Positions 44,531 to 64,000 of a DNA stretch of 64,000 nucleotides are shown piece by piece. Source of the DNA: Dillenia suffruticosa. Its lineage: Eukaryota > Streptophyta > Magnoliopsida > Dilleniales > Dilleniaceae. Made by a program: the position numbers and the translations under genes. The notes below the pieces were generated by a model. It did not search any database and was not told the origin of the DNA. It was given only the letters and a program-made list of their open reading frames with translations. The stretch covers positions 3,487,001 through 3,551,000 of the forward strand of contig JAVTVX010000027.1 of NCBI GenBank assembly GCA_033439265.1, written 5' to 3'. The stretch's first letter is position 1; the number at the start of each line of letters is the position of its first letter.

Positions 44531-47500
44531 TCACCACCGATTCGTGACCAACATGAATAAGTGTTCTTTCCATTCTCTTGGGCCAGCGAAAGGCATGAGG
44601 CCACATAACAATGGAAGAAACAGAAGCAGGGTCGCATAAAATAATGTTCGCCTACTCCAATATGGAATGATTGTGTGGCTCTTTCCGTCTTGAGACACTG
44701 TGATGGGTCCATTAAGTACAGCAAACAACTTTGAAGTCCAGATACCCGAAAATAAGTGCAGCAAGCATAGAACTTCCCAGTAAAACAGCCAATGAAACCC
44801 AGCACCTCCCAAAGTGTCCACACACAACTTTCCTGCAGCACCGCATACAACTCCTAATAGCAAGAGTATGAAAGTGACAGGCATTTTTTGTCCTGAAGAT
44901 GAACGCTGAAGAAGCAAATAGGCTATTGCCACGATCATGAAGATACCAAACATCATCCTGCTGACAACCTGAACCTGGCACCTGATACCATGGAAGCCTG
45001 TTTCAAAGGACGCAATTGACTTTGGCATCCACCATGATTTGGACTCCTGAAATATGGCAAAGCATCATTAATGACAAAGGTTTAATGCGAAGAGGTTAAT
45101 GAAACAATCCAATTGCAGATGCTCCAGAAGAAGGTGTTGATTGATCAGTGCAATTGCACTAAAAGTATTTTACCTTGGTAGAGGGCATACAGGAAGCAGT
45201 CGCATCAGTTATCCGTTTGTATGAATAAATATAAGCCCCATAACATAGGGAGGCCGACATAATAAGTAATCCAGCAACAAGACAGTCTATGCATGTTGCG
45301 AGAAACTCAGCATATCTGCTGTCTTCCAATTGATTCATGAACTTCTCGGCTTTAAAGGATGCTTTTGAAATCCCCATTTTGATTTTAGTTCTCTCCAGAA
45401 CATTGGAATCGGATCTAAGGGCTAGCTGTTTTTCTTTCAGTTGCAGTTTCTTCATGGTAAGACCTATCTCCAAAGTTTTGAGCTTATTAGAGCGTTCTAG
45501 CTCAATTACTGACCTCTCAAAGGTGTTAACTATGGACTTATTAGTTATGGAGCTCAATGTGCCTGATGAAGCATATGCCAGCTGTTGATGCAATACTAAC
45601 TCCCGGTTCACAGAATCCAATTGTATATTCTCCTGTATATCTTCTAGTGTTTCCAGTGATGCAGGTATAGTATCAGCAGGTAGAGCTGCTTCTGACTGTG
45701 AGTCATTTGTGGCAGAACAATCACCAGAAAATCCCACAGTGCTTAGGGAAGTAGATGGAATTTCAAAAGAAGAGCCCTTGATGTCAGAGTAATGTATGTC
45801 TTCGGCTTGGTCGAGAGATGATCCATTTATCAGTTTATGCTCTTGCAGATCCTCAAGCATGCTCAATTTTTCCTGAGCTTCAATGGTAGATAATTCCACT
45901 TCTGACTGAAGCTCATTTTCCATAGAGCTGCAAATAGAACACCCTTTTCTGTTTGAAGACATGGATGGAGGTTCCCTGTAAGAACTCCTAATGTCTAAGA
46001 GGCTCAAGGCATCACTCTTCTTCGGGGATGATGTATTTAACAATCTAAGGGTCCTCAAAGTGCTTCTAAATGATTTCTCAAAGTTCTGCACAAAGCAATC
46101 AAACTTCTTCCCTGACACCTGTAGCAACAGATTTAGTGGAAAGAAAGGTACACCTATTAGTTATAATACCTTTAGTTTGTAAGAAAATGCTGTCAGAATA
46201 ACAAGTGGAAATTCAACTTGAAAACCGGAGGCAATAAGTTGCTTCCAACGATCAAGTAAGCAGATTAAGTGCATCTTACATTGGCTAAAGATTCTTTGAC
46301 TGCCATAGTGCAGATCTGCAAGAGAAATATACAGAAGTGATATAAATATACTGTTTACTAGTTTTGAAACTCAAAAATGTATAACATGGGTGCACATTCA
46401 TACAAAGAAAGTGATCCCTCACTACGGAGGAGGGCTCCACTTCAGGTTGTGCCATTTGTTCCACCAAATCCAACCATGAAAGACCTGGATGGTCCACGGC
46501 TGTAAAATTAAACAGCTGTGGTATATAAATAAGCTAATCTTACTGTTCTCATACAAAAACTGGTTTCCAAGGTTTTTCCTTTATTAGAAGAAAGCGCTTT
46601 TTGATCCATAAAATATAGGAGAAAGTGGAATGATATTGGTCTTAAATAGAAATTGCAAGCAAAAGTACTCTAATTTGCCAAATATTTTGAAATACTCATG
46701 TCTAGAAAGGGATTTATGAAGCACACCGTAGAGATATGATCGACGGGCAGGTCTTCTTCCCTTACATATTTCCTTTCAAGAATCTGTCACGACATCCAAG
46801 ATCTCGACATTAATTACCCTCTTTGAAAAAACAGAAAAGAGCAATATAAGCAGAAGAGGCAAAACTATAGTGCAAGTCTTTAGCATTTCAGAACGGACGC
46901 ATAATGTAGGCTTCTTGAAGCATAACATTAGCATTCCATGTATTCTCAGAAAGGTCAATGTGCTCAATGATGTGTCTTCTAGGATCATACATTAAATACA
47001 TCAGTAGATATTGTATTCCCATTCTATTCAACAATTGCATATTATTGCAACGTCCACCTAATCTTATGTCTCAAGAGCATCTTAGTCTTACAAATTGTCT
47101 ACTTTCAATAAATCCCTCCACAGTAAAAACATTTTAAATAGTTAGACTCGATTCATGAAATCAGTTGCCCTGATTTCACAATGCTGCAACTCAAAAAGCT
47201 TGCATGATAGATACAGTACATAAATCATGCTTATGTCCAGAGGCGAGCAAAATTTTGAAAAACATAAAAGAAAATTCTAGTAGCAGCATTTCAGCAAATG
47301 CGCTAAAATCATTTAAAATAGCATTTGTTCCCTAAACCTTTCCTCTCTTCCACGCCCCCCAAAATTTTAAAAGCTAAACATAGAATCCTAATATGACCTC
47401 TCTATCTACACTACTCGAGTTCAAGAACAACCTTTTTGCAATACCATTTGAAATTCCCCAATTCAAAACAAACAACAAAATGCACAAAATCTCTCTCAAT

Positions 47501-48109
47501 TTCAACAATTTCAACAATTTCAACAATTTCAACAATTTCAACAATTTCAACAATTTCAACAATTTCAACAAGCAAGCTGTAAACTTCCCACTAAAAACTC
47601 ATTCAAAATGATATTTTTTTTGGTTTCCTCAATTGATTCCCAAAATCATTAAACCCTAAAAAAAGAATGGAATCAAAATGATCTAACCACATGACCAGAA
47701 CCCCAATTCAATCAAAAAGTTAAACTTTTCGTATCACATTGAATTTAAACCAAACCTGAGAAACAAAAGCGGCAATAGACATGCCAAGAGGAAGAGCGAG
47801 AGAATCCACGTCGCTCTCGTAACGTCGAATACCTCCGATCAAAATTCTAGGGTTTCGTCGCTTATCAGACAATCGAAGGCCTCTAACTCTCTGCGAACAC
47901 GACGACGAAGAAGAAGAAGCACGAAAAGACGAAGACGACGCTGTTGAAGTCATGTCTCCCTCCTTTCTACGTTTTCTGATTTTGTTCCTAGTGCTTCCGT
48001 TGCAAAAACGAACAATTTTGGCCGTCGGAATTGGAATGACGGCGGCGGTGGCGCACAAGGAGTCGTCAGCATCTTGGAGAGAATGGAGAGAGAGGGGGGG
48101 AACGGCCAT
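44531..48109 (-). CDS. CPR5: CPR5, transmembrane nucleoporin and negative regulator of immunity
   Basis: Exons in transcript order: 48109-47756, 46783-46727, 46315-46280, 46118-45174 and 45046-44531, all phase 0, giving 635 residues (Arabidopsis CPR5: 564). A basic segment at 41-49 (RNKIRKRRK) and a later KRR form a bipartite-type nuclear signal. Exon 1 ends in the family motif 'LALPLGMSIAAF'. Exons 2-4 carry 'ILERK', 'ICTMAVKESLAN' and 'NFEKSFRSTLRTLRLLN'; a helical block (KLKTLEIGLTMKKLQLKEKQ) follows. Hydrophobic segments lie near 424-446, 495-511, 520-537, 548-566 and 598-616, matching the C-terminal membrane bundle. Exon 5 begins ESKSWWMPKSIASF, highly conserved. In Arabidopsis CPR5 sits in the nuclear pore and restrains effector-triggered immunity, cell death and CDK-inhibitor signalling. 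The extra length is in the Ser/Glu-rich middle of exon 4. Confidence 0.95.
47499..47570. repeat. Nine-bp tandem repeat (CAACAATTT)n in CPR5 intron 1
   Basis: Eight near-perfect units of CAACAATTT in the intron between CPR5 exons 1 and 2 (46784-47755). On the transcribed strand it reads AAATTGTTG repeated. It creates spurious Leu-Lys and Asn-Phe reading frames that are not genes. Confidence 0.93.
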
Positions 48110-48439: not shown

Positions 48440-50054
48440 GGTGTTGAGGCACGGAGTGTATGCAACCCAGAAAAGCAAGTAGTCGCACCACATTGGTTTG
48501 ATTTGGTTATTTTTTTTAAATAAATCATTTTTATATGATGAAATTTATTTTGAATTAGATTGATTTAAATAAAACTCTTTCGATATTTATTTTTTAAATA
48601 CATAAAATTTTAACATTAAATATTATTTAAATGATATCAATATCCGATCATCAAATTAAATCAATTAAACGTAATTCACTCTATAATCCTAATCCCAACT
48701 CAGCATTTTCCAGCATTACTTCACTCAGGTTAAAAAAATTGAACAATCGTATTGGAATTCATTTGGATCATAATAAAACCATACTTTGATCATGCTAATA
48801 TTTAAGGATCTATGATTCTATATTCTGATCGAGCAATTGCTAGATTCACAATAAAACCGAATTTCAATTATTTTTGCTCTTAATATTTCAAATTTGTTTA
48901 TTTGAACAGAAAATGAATTCTATTTGATTTATTTATTTAGTTTTAGGCAAAGAGGGAGGACGAAATGAGATTTAGATCGAAATTGCTATTTGTGGTACTA
49001 CTTTAAGAATTGATATCAGATTAATCGAAACAACTATTCTATTCATGAAAATACATGAATTAATATAAGAAAAAAACACAATGAATTTAATCGACAATTT
49101 CTTCTTATATTTGTTTTTGTTTTATTCTAATTTTTCTCCTACTTTGATTGTAAAATTAAAACTTTAAAAAAGGTGCATAGCTTAATGTAAGTGATAACTG
49201 TTAAATTTTACCAACATCCAAAGTTTGATCCCCTGATTTCAATTTTTTCGCTGATTGAATGAGTGACTAAGATTTAATAACAGAATATTAAATTTTCTTA
49301 ATTACAATATCGATTTTGTGTTTTGATTAAAAAAAATATGCGTAAAAAAAGTTGGCTCTTAATTGATTTCTGTAACTACTCAAATTAGATTAGTCAGATT
49401 TTAAATATCGATAAATTTTGAATTTGAGTTATGAAAATAAAAAAATAAGATTTGAGAGAGTCAATTCTTTAAATATGTTTTACAATATTCAGAGTAGATT
49501 AGTCGAGTAAAATATAGATATTGCTTGATGAAAAAAAATATCAAAGTATAAAAAAAAAGAAACTGTTGAATTTTTATTTAGGAATGTAATGTTTAAGAGG
49601 GCCTTGCCCCTGGTCGCCCTTTTTCTCAAGTTGGTGAGTCGGATTGATGACACTAATCGAGGCATTCCCAAAAAAAGAAAAAAAAAATGAAGCAAAATGT
49701 GTCAATGCACCTGCAGATGTTGCGAATAGACTCATGATAGAATATTCATCAAATCTGCTTTAATTAGAATAAAATTATATCTTTAATTTTTAAATTATTA
49801 TAAATTATAAATTAATATGAAATACGATTTTCATATTTTCATTTTTTTGTTAAACTTATTTTTATAACCCATTGGTTAACATCATAACTGTAACAATCAA
49901 AGATAAAAGTATTAACTTTGGTCTTTACAACGAGGTGCAAAGAAGGGGAAGAGACAAAACTAGTAGCCTCTCTCAAATGACTTCGAGAAGAAGCTGCTCT
50001 ACCCAAAGTGGACGAGTATTGGACAATGCATCGCATATACTTATTATATTTTTC

Positions 50055-50055
<1 letters not shown>

Positions 50056-50089
<34 letters not shown>
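50056..50089. repeat. GA microsatellite in duplication copy A
   Basis: About 17 GA units; the equivalent in copy B is at 62496-62534. Confidence 0.85.
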
Positions 50090-50091
<2 letters not shown>

Positions 50092-50586
50092 TTTTTTTTT
50101 TTTGGCTTGGTCAGAAGAGAGGGATCAGTGAAGCGCCGGACCTATGATTGGTTCATGCTCCAAAATTTTTTTTCCCCATATATTTGGATTACTCTATTAA
50201 TCACACCATGAAATTTAATTTAAGAGTTGATTCTCTTAATATTTATTTTTTTTATTTCTAAAATTTAAATTTGAGATTTTAATTAAATAAATTTAATATT
50301 TTATCATTAACACATACATAGGATTCACGTTCCAACTTCAATTGTTTGTTATGAAAATGCTACATGCATAGGTTATGTGTCAAATAACCAGCTCTTGATC
50401 ATTCTTTAGGGAGTTTTACATAGGAACTGTTTGTACAATGAAACCCGAAACCAAAATTTTTAGGGTTAATGTTTCTTAGATTTGGTCTGTAAGGTATCGG
50501 ATGGACTATGTTTGAACACTATCATTTTCGCATAAAGTTGCTGTCGTTGGCATCTATGCTCAAGCTACCATACATTCGACCAAAAC

Positions 50587-50587
<1 letters not shown>

Positions 50588-50620
<33 letters not shown>
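50588..50620. repeat. Second GA microsatellite in duplication copy A
   Basis: About 16 GA units; the equivalent in copy B (63075-63093) is shorter. Confidence 0.85.
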
Positions 50621-50624
<4 letters not shown>

Positions 50625-50960
50625 TAGCATTGGAAACATTTTGATTTACACCAATCAATAAACCTTTCTTTTAACAAGAATATCGAAAAATTACAACCTA
50701 TAAAAGAACAAAAACAAGATCATCTGGCCTTCCCATGATTTTGCCCGAGTTCATCTTTTCCACGACACGAAAGGAAAAGACCAAATCAACAAAACATATA
50801 GAAGCAACCAGTCAATAAACAAGCTGAATTAAAACAGCATAAATTTCATTGATCATGTTCAATGAAATTTCACATTTGGAGATAGTATATAGATAGAAGG
50901 TTAATAAATTCAACAAATTCAAGAAATTAGAAAGTTTCTGAAAGTCTGAAATCATAATCT

Positions 50961-51568
50961 CTACCACTCAACTCCATGGTGGAGATGAGCAGCCACACCT
51001 AGCCTTCCATTGCAGTCATGCTCGAGGATCTTGCTCATATTAAAGCCTCCCACTCCGAATGCCCTTGAAGTCACTTGTGCAGTGATCGGATAATAACCAC
51101 CATCGAAAGGACTCTGAAAATGATCCGTCTTAAAAACTACAGAGTTAGAAGTTTATGGATGTCATCAACAACAATAGTATTAGCATCATTAGTATTATGA
51201 GACTGATCTTCTTGTCTAGCTAAGGAGTTCTTCTCTCCTTCTGTTTCTCTGTACTTGTTGAGATAAACCTTTAAAGGTCCAATATAGTTCTCGAATCCTA
51301 AAGCGTTCATGGCCCAAAGAAGATCATCTCCGTTGATTGTCTTCCGTTTTTCTATCCGACACTTGTCAGAGGCTTCGCCGGTGATGAAGCTGATGAACTC
51401 AAGACACACTGTTGGACAGTTTCCTTGGCTTCTTTTTGCAGTTGCAGGAAGAGATTTCTTCATGATACGGCTAACATTGGCAATGGGAAGAAACTGATCT
51501 TGCTGAGCTGTCGGATAAGTCCCCAGATAATGGGCTTCTGACCGGGCTAGACTGGTTTCTTTTTCCAC
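50961..51568 (-). pseudogene. NF-YB2/3-like gene, decayed duplicate copy
   Basis: Clear homologue of the NF-YB gene at 63435. The histone-fold core is still readable: '[20 protein letters not shown]' and '[13 protein letters not shown]'. Damage is visible in four places. There is no ATG at the expected N-terminus: the open frame upstream of the core begins at a GTG and reaches a stop without an ATG. A 7-bp loss plus a compensating 2-bp loss replaces the conserved [14 protein letters not shown] helix with an unrelated [14 protein letters not shown] one-base loss at the DIHK position truncates the C-terminus after LLTL. A block of about 40 bp covering the Gly-rich tail segment is missing. NF-YB proteins pair with NF-YC to bind CCAAT boxes; the altered helix would probably block pairing. 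Confidence 0.85.
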
Positions 51569-54577: not shown

Positions 54578-56749
<2,172 letters not shown>

Positions 56750-57049
56750 CACTCCCTATCCCGATCCTCACACCATACCAATAAACAGCTTTCACGAAAT
56801 TTACAGCCTTAGACTCAGAAACCAATTGGGTCAATTCAATAACAAAGATCGCATCACGAAAAAACCCCATCAAACCTCATCCTTCGAGACACGAATGAAG
56901 CACCATCAAATAATCCATTCTGTGCAAACCTAATGAACATTGCATTGCAACAAACAAGGCCTCTCCTTTACATTCCCTCAAACAGATTATAACCCATATC
57001 TAGTGGACCACATTTTACATGCATATCAACCGTTGCTGTTTGTGCATAA

Positions 57050-57246
57050 ATATCAGTTGAAAAAGGCGATATTAGCACCGGAAACGGAAGCAATCGAAGA
57101 TGCTCGAATGGAGGCGGATTCGAGATAAAGTTGTTCGATAGTGGGAGGTCGTAGGTTATGGGAGGTCCATTGTACTCGACGGCTATGGAGTGACCGAGAT
57201 GATCTGCATCGAGAAGTGGAGCTCCGGCGGGTAACATTGGACCCAA
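57050..57246 (-). pseudogene. Fragment resembling the N-terminus of an extra-large G protein (XLG)
   Basis: A minus-strand open frame from the ATG at 57237 contains 'SIAVEYNGPPITYDLP', very close to the conserved N-terminal EYxGPPxxYDLP motif of plant XLG proteins as I remember it. It is followed by a Pro-rich linker, then runs directly into the PPR-like DMHVKCG block in the same frame. No Galpha domain is present anywhere in the window. It is probably an exon fragment captured next to a PPR relic; identity rests on one motif. Confidence 0.35.
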
Positions 57247-57369
57247 AACTTAACTTCTTCCCAAGTTTTGTTCTCCTCCGCATCAGAAAACATGGCGTTG
57301 GCTTTGGAGACGTGACATTAGGGCTTTGAATTTGAAACAGGACAAGAAGAAGACGTATGTAAACTTCAC

Positions 57370-59755
57370 CGGGAACCTGTCACACTGTCAGATGTCATCA
57401 GGGCGTCAGTACACAGTCATGTGGATTTAGTCCAGTCAGCAACGACGTGGTGCACAGGTCAGCAGGTTCAGCCATGTCAACATCCACCTGTTGTCCCAGT
57501 CAGCGGATGTAGTCCGGCCAGCATAACACGTGTACGACGAAGTCCAGTCAGCGGCCATGTGACTACCAGGTCAGCCATGCTTCCCAGTCAGCAGTCCAAC
57601 AGTCCACGTCTACACATGCGGCCCAGGATTCTAACTTTATGATAGGTCCAGTCACATCCACGTGGCATCCCGGTCAACTTGCAATCCAGTCAGCAGCCAC
57701 GTGTATTCCACCTGTATGGAATAGTCAAGTCATCATCCACGTGTTGTCAATGTCAGCGCTAAAATCCAGTCAGCAGTCCATGTCCGCATATTCAGCACAG
57801 TCAGCAGACAAGTGTTGTCCACGTGCCGTCCAAGTCCAGTCAGCATCGACGTGCAGACAAGGTCAGAGGTAGCTTCCACTCAACTGTCCACGTCGGCATG
57901 TTTAGCCCAGTCAACAGACAAGTGTTGTCCACTTTGACTTACTGAGCCAGGTAAGCATTCCACCTGGATGCAAAAGTCCAGTTAGCATCCACGTCTCGTC
58001 CATGTCAGTGCTACAATCCAGTCAGCCGCTCACGTAGGCAAATTAAGCCCAGTCAGCGGACAACTGTTGTCCACGTCTATTTACCTCGCCAGGTAAGCAT
58101 TCAACCTGGATGCGGAGGTCCAGTCAGCATCCATGTCTCGACCAGGTCAGAGCGACTATCCAGTCATCACTCCACGTCGGCAAATGAAAGCCAGTGAGCA
58201 GACAAGTGTTAGCCACGTCAACTCACAGTGCCGGGTAAGCATTCCACCTGGACTGACAAATCCAGTCATCATCCACGTCATATCCAGGTCAGCGCCACAA
58301 ACCAGTCAGCAGACAAATGCTATCCACGTGCTGTCAGAGCCCAGTCAACAGACAAGTGTTGTCCACTTTGACTTACTGAGCCAGGTAAGCATTCCACCTG
58401 GATGCACAAGTCCAGTTAGCATCCACGTCTCGTCCATGTCAGCGATACAATCCAGTCAGCCCCTCACGTAGGCAAATTAAGCCCAGTCAGCGAACAACTG
58501 TTGTCCACGTCAACTTACCACGCCAGGTAAGAATTCGACCTGGATGCGGAGGTCCAGTCAGCATCAACGTCTAGTCCAGGACAGAGAGACTATCCAGTCA
58601 TCACTCCACGTCGGCAAACGAAGGCCAGTCAGCAGACAGGTGTTAGCCACGTCAACTCACAGTGCCCGGTAAGCATTCCACCTGGACCGACAAATCCAGT
58701 CATCATCCACGTCATGTCCATGTCAGCACCACAAAACCAGTCAGCAGTCCACGTCGTCGTATTCAACACGGTCAGCAGACCAATGCTGTCCACGTGCGGT
58801 CCGAGCCCAGTCAGGATTGACGTGATGCCCATGTCAGTGGTAGAATCCAGTCAGTTGTCCACGTCAACATACCTCGCCAGGCAAGCATTCCACCTGGATG
58901 CGGAAGTCCAGTCAGCATCCACGTCTCGTCCAGGTCACAGCGACTATCCAGTCATCACTCCACGTCGGCAAATGAAGGCCAGTCAGCAGACAAGTGTTAG
59001 CCACGTCAACTCACAGTGCCCCGGTAAGCATTCCACCTGGACCGACAAATCCAGTCATCATCCACGTCATGTCCATGTCAGCACCACAAACCAGTCAGCA
59101 GACAAATGCTGTCAACGTGCTGTCCGAGCCCAGTCAGCATTGACGTGATGTCCATGTCAGTGGTAGAATCCAGTCAGTTGTCCACGTCGACATACCTCGC
59201 CAGGTAAGAATTCCACCTGGATGGACAAGTCCAGTCAGCATCCACGTCCTGTCCATGTCAGCGCCACAAACCAGTAGCAGTCCACGTCGGCATATTCAAC
59301 ACAGTCAGCAGACAAGTGTTGTCCACGTCGACATACCTCGCCAGGTAAACATTCCACGTGGATGCGGGAGTCCAGTCATCACTCCACGTCGGCAAATGAA
59401 GGCCAGTAAGCAGACAAGTGTTAGCCACGTTGACTCACCGCGCCAGGTAAGTATTCCACCTGGATGGACGAGTCGGGTCAGCATCCACGTCTTGTCCAGG
59501 CCAGCGCCACAAACCAGTCAGCAGTCCACGTCCGGATATTCATCCAAGTCAGCAGACAATTGTTGTCCACGTAGACTGACTTATTCATGTAAGTAATTCA
59601 CCTGTATGACCATGTCCCGTCATCGCCCACGTGGTTCCTAATCCAGTCAGGTCTGCAATCCGGTCGGCAGTCTACGTGGCGTCCAAGTCAACAATGCAAC
59701 CCAGTCCGGTCCGGTTCAGAGTGTTGACTAAAGCTTTGACTGAGAGGTTCAACCA
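57370..59755. repeat. Complex tandem repeat array with 434-bp higher-order period
   Basis: Roughly 2.4 kb of GC-richer DNA built from CCAGTCAGCA, CCACGTC and CAGGTAAGCATTCCACCTGGATG modules. The CCAGGTAAGCATTCCACCTGG anchor recurs about every 100-210 bp (mostly 141-150) at 57947, 58089, 58231, 58381, 58523, 58665, about 58876, 59018, 59200, 59341 and 59443. The first three anchors recur exactly 434 bp later (57947/58381, 58089/58523, 58231/58665), so a three-unit block was duplicated. The 5' end (57370-57946) has only the short CCAGTCAGCA/CCACGT modules. By hand count there are about 45 ACGT cores, mostly CCACGTC or CCACGTG. Open frames across it (up to 144 codons) are repeat-derived. No transposon hallmark was found. 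Confidence 0.93.
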
Positions 59756-60712
59756 ATTTTCAGCCGGTTTTCTGGTCAACCAGACCGGTTCCTAGGGTTT
59801 TAAGGTGTTCCGAATTCATTTCTGGGTTTAGATTAGCTAAATTCAGACTCTACAAATAGGGTTTTTTGCTTTTTTCCCAAAATTTTCATGCCATAAATGA
59901 TTGGTTTTCAAGTAAAATGGGGTTTCCCTTTTCCTGATACATGTGGAATTCAAACAATCAAAAACTATGACAGAGAAAGAGAGAGAGCAACAAAAGATCA
60001 TTGTAATAATAATTAGCGGTATCATAATTTCAAAATAAATCAATAAATTAATTAAAACTTAAAACTACCAAATGTAAATAGTTGAAAAGCGTGTATATTT
60101 TTCAAATTGATTAGTCATAAATCATAAAGGGTAGATTAGTGGAAAAAAGTTTGGGAAAAAAAAAATGACAAGGAAGGGATGTCTGCCAAAAAATGGCACC
60201 TAATAATCGCGTCTACTCTCCGTGTTAACTAACCTTTTGGGGTTGATGTGGATAGTTTGCTATGGACCGCATCCGATTGAGCTCAATCCGATCCACCCAT
60301 TCAGGGAAAAGGGGTATACGAAGAATCAAATTTTGCTGACTTGGTTCTTTTTTTTTTTGGGTTTGATTTGAGGCCCCTGACGGGGTAGAAAATACGCGAT
60401 ATCGGAGCCGTAGGGTTTGGGAGAGGTATCGGCGGCTGAGATCTGTTGAGTGATGACCACCACGACAACAGAAAGGGAAAGAGAGGGACCCTTGAGAGAG
60501 AGACAGAGAGAGAGAGAAGACGGAAAATATGGAAAAGGAAAATCCAGGAGAAAGATTGGATTTGGATCGGAGGGATGCGTTCTTAATTTTTTTTTTTATA
60601 AGGATTTAAATTTGAGAAAAGAGGGATTTATATCACTAAATTATCCCCCGTGATCCGTTCTTACTTCTGAGGACGCGGCAGTGAGGGGGCAGATTTTGCT
60701 GACTCGGCGACG
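59756..60712. other. Intergenic DNA beyond the array, with a leader-like stretch
   Basis: 59700-59800 has a GC-rich tail with CCGGTT words (GGTCAACCAGACCGGTT). 60390-60600 looks like a plant 5' leader (GTAGGGTTT, GA repeats) with an ATG at about 60453, but the frame is mostly GA-derived Glu-Arg and no downstream exon is evident. Confidence 0.45.
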
Positions 60713-61510: not shown

Positions 61511-62493
61511 ATAAATATAGTTGTGATACAATAATATGACTAATGCATCCTATTTGATTTGTTTATTCAATTTTAGACAAAGAGGGGGAAGAAATGAGAT
61601 TTAGAACGAAACTACTATATGTGATTATCCTTTAAGAATCGATATCAATTAATCAAAACTACCATTCGTGGAAATGCTTGAATTAATATAAGAAGAAAAA
61701 AGAAACCATGATGAATTTAATTATCGACAATTTCTTCTTATATTTGATTTTGTTTTGTTATAATTTTCTCCTACTTTGATAGTATAATTAAAAATTTAAA
61801 AAGGTGCATAGCTTAGTGTAAGTGAAACCGTTAAATTTTATTAATGACCTGTGAATTTAGTGACAGAATACTAAATTTTTTTAATCACGGACTTGAGTTT
61901 GTATCTTGAAAATAAAAAAATAAATATTGAGAGGGTTGATCCTTAATTGGACCCTACGACTATTTAAATTAGTTAAGTTTTTAAATATCAATGGTCAAAT
62001 AAAAAAAAAAAATCTTCTTATTTTGATGAGTCGGATTGATGACCTTAAGTTGTTGCCCTTTCCTCAAGTTGGTGAGTCGGATTGATGACCCTAAATGAGG
62101 CATTCTAAAAACCCAAAAAATAGCAAAATGTGTCCATGCACCTGAAGATGTCTCGCATAGACTCACAATAGAATATATGATCTATTGTGCTTTAATTAGA
62201 GTAAAATTATATATTTAGTTTTTAAATTATTATAAATTATAATTTAATATGAAATACGATTTTCATTTTTTCATTTTTATTTTGTTAAACTTATTTTCAT
62301 AACCTATTGGTTAACATAATTAGTGTAATAATCAAAGATAAAAGTATTAACTTTGGTCTTTTTAACAAGGTATAAAGAAGAGGAGGGGACAACTGGTTTA
62401 GTAACCTCCCTCGAATGACTTTGAGAAGTAGCTGTTCTACCCAAAGTGGACGAGTATATGGACAATGCATCGCATATACTTATTATTTTTTTC

Positions 62494-62495
<2 letters not shown>

Positions 62496-62534
<39 letters not shown>
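62496..62534. repeat. GA microsatellite in duplication copy B
   Basis: About 19 GA units at the site equivalent to 50056-50089 in copy A. Confidence 0.85.
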
Positions 62535-62536
<2 letters not shown>

Positions 62537-63434
62537 CTTTTTTCTTGCTTGGTCAGAAGAGGGGGATCAGTGAAGCGCCGGACCTCTGACCGGTTCACGT
62601 TCCAACCTTTTTTTTTTTACCAACAAGTATTTAGATTATTCGATTAATTATTTAGATTATTCGATTAATTTGATTTGAATATTACGAGACCAAATTAAGG
62701 AGTTGGTTCTTCTAACGCCTATTTTTTTATTATCAAAACTTAAATTTAATATTTTGATTAAGAAAATTTAGTATTTTGTTATTAAATTTGATGTTGGTGT
62801 CGGTGTTGGTGTTACAACTTCAATCGTTTGTCATGAAAATGCTATATGCATAGGTCTTATGTTTCAAATAAATTGCTCATAATCATTCTTTGGGGACTTT
62901 TACACAGGAAGTGTTTGTCCAATGAAACCCCGAAACCAAAATTTTCTAGGAGTAATCTTTCTTAGATTTGGTCTGTAAGGATTGGATGGACTATGTTTGA
63001 ACGCTGTCATTTTGGCATAAAGTTGCTGTCGTTGGCATCTATGCTCAAGGTACCATACATTCAACCAAAACATGAGAGAGAGAGAGAGAGAGAGTTAGCA
63101 TTAGAAACATTTTGATTTACACCAATCAATAAACCCTTTTTTTAACAAGAAGATCGAAAAATTACAATCTATAAAAGAACAAAAACAAGGCCATCTTGCC
63201 TTCCCATGATAGTGCTTAAGTTGATCATCTTTTCCACGAAATGAAAGGAAAAGACCAGATCAACAAAACACATAGAAGCAACCAGTCAATAATCAAGCTG
63301 AATTAAAACAGCATAAATTTCATTGATCATGTTCAATAAAATTTTACATTAGGAGATAGTATATAGATAGAAGGTTAATAAATTCAACAAAATCAAGAAA
63401 TTAGAAAGTTTCTAAAAGCCTGAAATCATAATCT

Positions 63435-64000
63435 CTACCACTCAACTCCATGGTGGAGATGAGCAGCCATAGCTAGCTTTCCATTGCCATCATGCTCGTG
63501 GATCTTGCTCATATTAAAGCCTCCCACCGCAAAATTCTCGCCATAGCCAATGATCCTTCCACCATCTCCGAATCCCCTTGAAGTCACTTGTGCAGTGATC
63601 GGATAATTACCACCATTGAAAGGACTCTGAAAATGATCAATCTTAGTAACTACAGGGTTAGAAGTCTTATGGATATCAACAACAGCAATAGTATTAGCAG
63701 CGTTAGTATTATGAGACTGATCATCTTGTCTAGCTGAGGAGTTCTTCTCTCCTTCTGTTTCTCTGTACTTGTTGAGATAAACCTTTAAAGGTCCAATATA
63801 GTTCTCGAATCCTAAAGTGGTCATGGCCCAGAGAAGATCATCTCCGTTGATTGTCTTCCGTTTTTCTCTCTGACACTTGTCAGAGGCTTCCCCCGTGATG
63901 AAGCTGATGAACTCAGACACACACTCCTGGACAGTTTCTTTGGCTTCTTTGGATATTTTTGCAGTTGCAGGAAGAGATTTCTTCATAATACGGCTAACAT
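63435..64000 (-). CDS. NF-YB2/3-like CCAAT-binding subunit, 5' end beyond window
   Basis: Open from the window edge (codon split at 64000) to TAG 63435-63437, at least 188 residues, no intron. The visible part starts inside the histone-fold core ([16 protein letters not shown]), then '[20 protein letters not shown]', '[20 protein letters not shown]' and '[16 protein letters not shown]'. These are the NF-YB core with the [19 protein letters not shown] wording of the NF-YB2/3 branch. The tail is Gly- and His-rich and ends HHGVEW. NF-YB pairs with NF-YC; the dimer joins NF-YA or CONSTANS at CCAAT or CORE elements, and NF-YB2/3 promote flowering in Arabidopsis. Its duplicate at 50961 is broken, so this copy is probably the functional one. 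The N-terminus and start codon are not in the window. Confidence 0.93.

Follow-up and report, generated by a model that had tools for sequence, protein, structure and literature searches.

The 64-kb window (the whole stretch of 64,000 nucleotides that was analysed) contains a tandem array of about 2.3 kb on the plus strand, at positions 57,380-59,715, which has the two members of a tandem gene duplication on either side, given that a region with an NF-YB-type gene (49,613-51,477) is repeated on the other side of the array at 62,052-64,000 with 83.7% identity. Over its full extent (48,912-51,477 and 61,542-64,000) the duplicated region shows 82.5-83.7% identity between copies lying about 12.5 kb apart. 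In Pfam searches, which of the two duplicated copies covered the left one, one ORF of the window matched the CBF/NF-Y histone-fold family, and two further ORFs matched the RKP_N, SPRY, RNF123-like TPR and RING families. With these matches, the window would probably be plant nuclear DNA.

Adjoining the array there is a composite pseudogene on the minus strand (56,857-57,293, by phmmer and reading frames), in which a fragment that we take to resemble the N-terminus of XLG3 is joined in one frame, over 56,857-57,249, to pentatricopeptide-repeat (PPR) sequence. Residues 57-92 of a 93-aa ORF matched PPR proteins in a phmmer search against PDB chains (E 3.8e-11) and an ORF beyond the stop that breaks the locus also gave a PPR match by phmmer (E 3.4e-4), while Pfam returned no PPR match for the 93-aa ORF. 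Because the locus is interrupted by this stop and its start appears in a different frame, the composite pseudogene proposed in the initial annotation is accepted as far as tested, with phmmer vouching for its PPR part and the XLG3 part being putative. On the other side, the string CTACAAATAGGG, presumably a TATA-like motif, is found on the plus strand at 59,850-59,861, about 135 bp to the right of the array, and no plus-strand gene was recognised immediately downstream of it.

The array, delimited by TRF, repeat families, a word model and a word scan whose scores drop at about 57,400 and 59,700, is GC-rich and bounded by AT-rich DNA, as had been described (GC content of 0.53, the two flanks having 0.35 and 0.33), with a CpG observed/expected ratio of 0.70 compared with 0.44 and 0.72. 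Its tandem nature was confirmed by TRF, which detected periods of 110, 142, 434 and 102. No counterpart was found by self-BLAST elsewhere in the 64-kb window, a blastn search of plasmids with the array gave zero matches, and none of the titles and abstract openings among the literature matches listed describes the array. Exact-pattern matches in viral and prokaryote sequences (8 loci each, one match per locus) were regarded as chance.

According to the word model (11 positions, seeded with TCCA and refined in at most 15 rounds to TCCAgGTagcc), the array is built at its lowest level from an approximately 11-bp word, TCCA(n)GTCAGC, which is placed 131 times on one strand, part of these placements being due to chance since shuffled arrays hold a mean of 21 positions scoring at least 3 bits, compared with 140 in the array. 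Most of the spacings between words (98 of 130) measure 11-13 or 18-19 bp. With a stricter scan (7 bits), 84 of the 137 plus-strand matches of the window fell inside the array, and word scores are lower at both array ends. The most frequent 8-mers are CCAGTCAG, CAGTCAGC, TCCAGTCA and TCCACGTC, of which CAGTCAGC occurs 24 times inside the array and is absent from the rest of the plus strand of the window; TCCA-GTCAGC and TCCACGTC-(A)GC would represent the same word, one base apart.

These words nest into units of 71 and 142 bp, and three monomers of the 142-bp type compose a 434-bp unit that is present in two copies and a partial third, in agreement with the earlier proposal that small units had been bundled into a larger one. 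When the eleven monomers of about 142 bp were aligned, their classes followed one another as a b c a b c b c d b d (class names coined in this analysis). As established by TRF and segment comparison, the first copy of the higher-order unit (57,904-58,301; monomers a, b and c) recurs at +434 (58,338-58,735) with 25 differences over 398 bp (93.7% identity), beyond which the register is lost, so that the 434-bp repeat initially called exact is exact in the spacing of its anchors and not in its sequence. The partial third copy (58,877-59,090; monomers b and c) lies at +354 (92.0% identity over 138 bp) and +355 (100% over 71 bp), and the segment 58,764-58,952 is found again at +323 (59,087-59,275) with 88.4% identity over 189 bp. 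The left part of the array (57,380-57,903) is degenerate and lacks regular 142-bp units.

A 21-bp anchor, CCAGGTAAGCATTCCACCTGG, occurs 11 times on the plus strand between 57,947 and 59,463 when up to two mismatches are allowed, and 0 times in 100 shuffles; the estimate of at least ten anchors was therefore sound, though only two of the 11 are exact. As also reported, three successive anchors (57,947, 58,089 and 58,231) recur at 58,381, 58,523 and 58,665, each at exactly +434, and two degenerate relatives were recognised by eye only near 57,697 and 59,586. The splice-donor-like string CAGGTAAG is present six times, every time within an anchor, and the remaining five anchors vary inside it; the consensus 5' splice site that most anchors were said to carry is thus present in six of the 11. 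We regard this string as a probable coincidence multiplied through duplication.

Minisatellites consist of head-to-tail units of about 10-100 bp extending over 0.5 to several kb, and the array agrees with this description, showing also the divergent monomers and segment copies (+434, +354/355 and +323) of a higher-order repeat. The array is probably a hierarchical (complex) minisatellite that grew locally in intergenic plant DNA, because its periods are nested, its segment copies have each their own breakpoints and divergence, the word model with its 131 placements weakens at the ends, and no element, RNA or coding signal was detected in the stretches scanned; the default offered in the initial annotation, a neutral minisatellite, is thus the best-supported reading. 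Complex minisatellites and higher-order repeats grow by unequal exchange. Since the array shows the pattern that unequal exchange, when it recurs at multiple scales, is expected to leave in tandem repeats, we infer that it grew by such exchange or by replication slippage at several length scales, that its centre would have been refreshed most recently while its edges decayed, and that it most likely has no selected function, although its ACGT cores may happen to attract bZIP proteins.

Two other kinds of sequence were set aside. A coding repeat was ruled out because neither 142 nor 434 is divisible by 3 and stops are present in all six frames (17-21 in each plus-strand frame through the array, with a longest open stretch of 205 codons), and in Pfam the two array ORFs gave nothing reaching a family cut-off. 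A structured RNA was set aside since Rfam gave no match to the array at gathering thresholds and the folds of a 435-nt segment (58,377-58,811) were within those of shuffled sequences on both strands (z of -1.10 and -1.32, with 13 and 12 of 100 shuffles folding at least as well).

It is unlikely that the array is the interior of a degraded transposable element, whether an LTR retrotransposon like Tat, Ogre or Retand, which would carry it in U3 or in the 3' untranslated region, a DNA transposon that captured gene fragments, or a solo LTR. Such an origin would fit the neighbouring composite of gene fragments, which resembles those carried by gene-capturing elements, and the presumed TATA-like string to the right of the array, but the NF-YB gene lies within the long direct repeats found on either side of the array, which are consequently read as the outcome of gene duplication rather than as LTRs. 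The search for solo LTRs, defined by TG..CA ends and exact 5-bp target duplications, yielded two candidates compared with 2.8 expected, no pair of inverted repeats of at least 18 bp exists in 56,500-60,500 (diverged TIRs, or TIRs lying further out, may exist), and no Helitron-like 3' end (a hairpin followed by CTRR) was seen in 59.6-61.0 kb on the plus strand or 56.6-57.5 kb on the minus strand. Of the 24 ORFs of at least 62 aa that lie outside the array in 51.7-62.1 kb, Pfam covered 18 and detected no transposon domain in them, gag and pol included, the six others being five over simple repeats and one GA-rich. For the transposon interior that the initial annotation had named as a possible refutation, the scanned stretches thus gave no terminal repeats, excess of target duplications or transposon domain. 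Such tandem arrays are common in the 3'UTRs of Tat-lineage elements according to two reports (PMC7004042, PMC11963269), and a review (PMC10794571) describes tandem repeats as common in transposable elements, more so in DNA transposons. Our array is similar to the arrays in the 3'UTR, or between POL and the 3' LTR, of Tat/Ogre/Retand LTR retrotransposons (PMC7004042, PMC11963269) in being a short, family-specific tandem array in a plant genome, and differs from the elements that carry them in that no LTRs, pol domain or element boundary were found at its locus.

It is improbable that the array has a regulatory function, in which its bZIP (ACGT) sites would form a homotypic cluster that lies along one helix face and serves as an enhancer, a sink or a decoy. 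The number of ACGT cores (45 in 57,370-59,755, spanning 57,445-59,677 on the plus strand) is the one initially estimated and exceeds the 11.5 expected for the array from a first-order model. CCACGTC (25) and CCACGTG (8), named as the source of these sites, provide 33 of the 45. The enrichment remains in part after correction for repeat copy number, with three ACGT in a single 142-bp consensus versus 0.64 expected (P=0.024). In the degenerate left part there are nine ACGT versus 2.4 expected, a number reached in 0 of 1000 simulations. This residual excess is read as the signature of one founding word, given that, from the alignment and the word model, the ACGT boxes and CAGGTAAG look like variants of one word multiplied by duplication, which argues against a regulatory array, as does the fact that one of the neighbours is a pseudogene. 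The array also contains eight occurrences of CCACGTCA; its complement TGACGTGG, the UPRE of mammals, is accordingly found eight times on the minus strand, which speaks for a regulatory array. Among words related to the plant ER-stress element pUPRE, whose sequence was taken from PMC3645738, TCCACGTCA occurs five times and TCCACGTCAT three times, but the pUPRE core CCACGTCATC, ATTGGTCCACG and ERSE-like words are absent from the array. The array words were not identified as pUPRE or UPRE on these counts.

An argument for sites arranged on one helix face would come from their phase, since 10.1 bp is the strongest period in the 6-40 bp range for ACGT, CAGTCA and TCCA, with vector strengths of 0.81, 0.85 and 0.70, respectively. 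In six segments from left to right (4-11 sites each) the ACGT phase is -2.6, -2.8, -2.1, -2.1, -1.7 and -1.9, a drift of at most about 1.1 bp across the 2.3 kb of the array, and the degenerate left part is also coherent. The array is not a plain decamer repeat, as exact base autocorrelation at 10 bp (0.228) and 20 bp (0.205) is under the background of 0.256. When compared with a null in which arrays of period 142 carried three randomly placed sites and a varying number of random indels, the observed ACGT phase was reached in 16% (14-16%) of simulations with no indels, which weakens the regulatory reading, and in 2.6%, 0.7%, 0.2% and 0.07% with two, four, six and ten indels (P 0.002-0.007 for four to six), and a word-spacing null reached it in 0.13% of 1500 simulations. 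Counting distinct spacing classes, CAGTCA holds the phase (V=3.14, 12 classes, one-sided P=0.0008), ACGT is left with V=1.79 (11 classes, P=0.037) and TCCA with V=1.08 (15 classes, P=0.14), and all the phase significance values given here are generous because these data also served to fit the period. The 10.1-bp phase is a real regularity, and past assembly from blocks about 30 and 41 bp long could account for it without selection. It is very improbable that it represents a selected phased lattice, in which ACGT and CAGTCA would be held on one helix face in 10.1-bp steps over about 230 turns, with phase-breaking indels purged, so that bZIP proteins could assemble or nucleosomes could be arrayed in a fixed rotational setting.

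In a conservation profile of ten units (all except the short one at 59,341), mean pairwise identity over the first 71 columns was 0.92 for the anchor, 0.95 for ACGT and 0.63 for spacers, but the ACGT window ranked only 9 among 47 four-column windows for conservation in five representative units. Within classes, changes were less frequent in columns invariant between classes (13/94) than in the others (18/48; P=0.0023, the second half of the columns being based on six units), and this difference was retained when only changes to states absent from the other classes were counted (P=0.024) or CpG was left out (P=0.041); with both filters together it was 9/94 versus 9/48 (P=0.18), with fewer events and less power. 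Between segment copies, word bases differed less than spacer bases (14/329 versus 44/467, P=0.0055), a contrast biased toward words because these were chosen by a match in either copy, and within classes the word and spacer columns gave 12/49 versus 10/22 (P=0.10) and 3/44 versus 6/27 (P=0.07). ACGT was retained at 15 of 16 places, compared with 0.59 for all 4-mers, and other 4-mers of the word were close to it (CAGT 0.90, CCAG 0.88, and also CATC).

The CpGs of the ACGT cores appeared particularly stable between segment copies, 14 of 15 being intact, given that 1/15 changed versus 21/32 other CpGs (P=1.5e-4), but this raw contrast is inflated because several of the other CpGs are gains in single copies. 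Losses polarised from a class-majority CpG, counted by hand from the unit tables without the columns lacking a class majority and the +323 pair, were 1/22 for ACGT and 4/26 for the others (P=0.36), and selection on ACGT was dropped since this difference is not significant. We take sequence constraint on the array to be possible, and grade it no higher because the column test loses significance with both filters and the CpG contrast is lost when polarised. Neither the 435-nt folds, which are within the shuffles, nor the constraint tests, which are not robust, support the regulatory or decoy role raised as speculation in the initial annotation, or a splicing role. Against the neutral reading stand the column test (P=0.0023), the word-versus-spacer contrast (P=0.0055), the raw CpG contrast (P=1.5e-4) and a phase above most simple nulls.

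A splicing-related array supplying repeated 5' splice sites, which the six copies of CAGGTAAG might suggest, would be exceedingly improbable, since that string belongs to one duplicated anchor, the five other anchors differ within it, and no plus-strand gene with a matching intron start was recognised at the locus.

The locally grown complex minisatellite that we favour is like other complex minisatellites in its short word, nested units, divergent monomers within a higher-order unit and degenerate edges. It is unlike typical ones in that it is small (2.3 kb, with two higher-order copies and a partial one), lies in gene-containing DNA and is ACGT-rich with helical spacing. The short interrupted repeat cassettes (SIRC) of Arabidopsis, described in one report (PMC10342631) as 2-8 repeats of 10-29 bp, also have short direct repeats split by variable DNA, whereas the array has more than 100 words in nested units. 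Multiple ACGT elements with spacers of 0-30 bp have been described for 1-kb regions of plant promoters in another report (PMC3622567), where ACGT likewise co-occur and their spacing is discussed as helical phasing, in contrast to the ACGT neighbours of the array, which are 28-101 bp apart through duplication.

If the array is ordinary, it illustrates clearly and on a small scale how higher-order repeats arise from nested duplication, and how copying one word can yield dense transcription factor motifs and splice-site-like strings without selection; because one copied word has this effect, motif counts in tandem repeats need correction. Should its helical phase prove to be selected, the array would stand as a very long natural example of phased bZIP sites.

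Two simple repeats were also observed in the window, a perfect AG microsatellite of about 51 units at 55,791-55,893 and a perfect 9-bp repeat, CAATTTCAA, present in 8.3 copies at 47,497-47,571.
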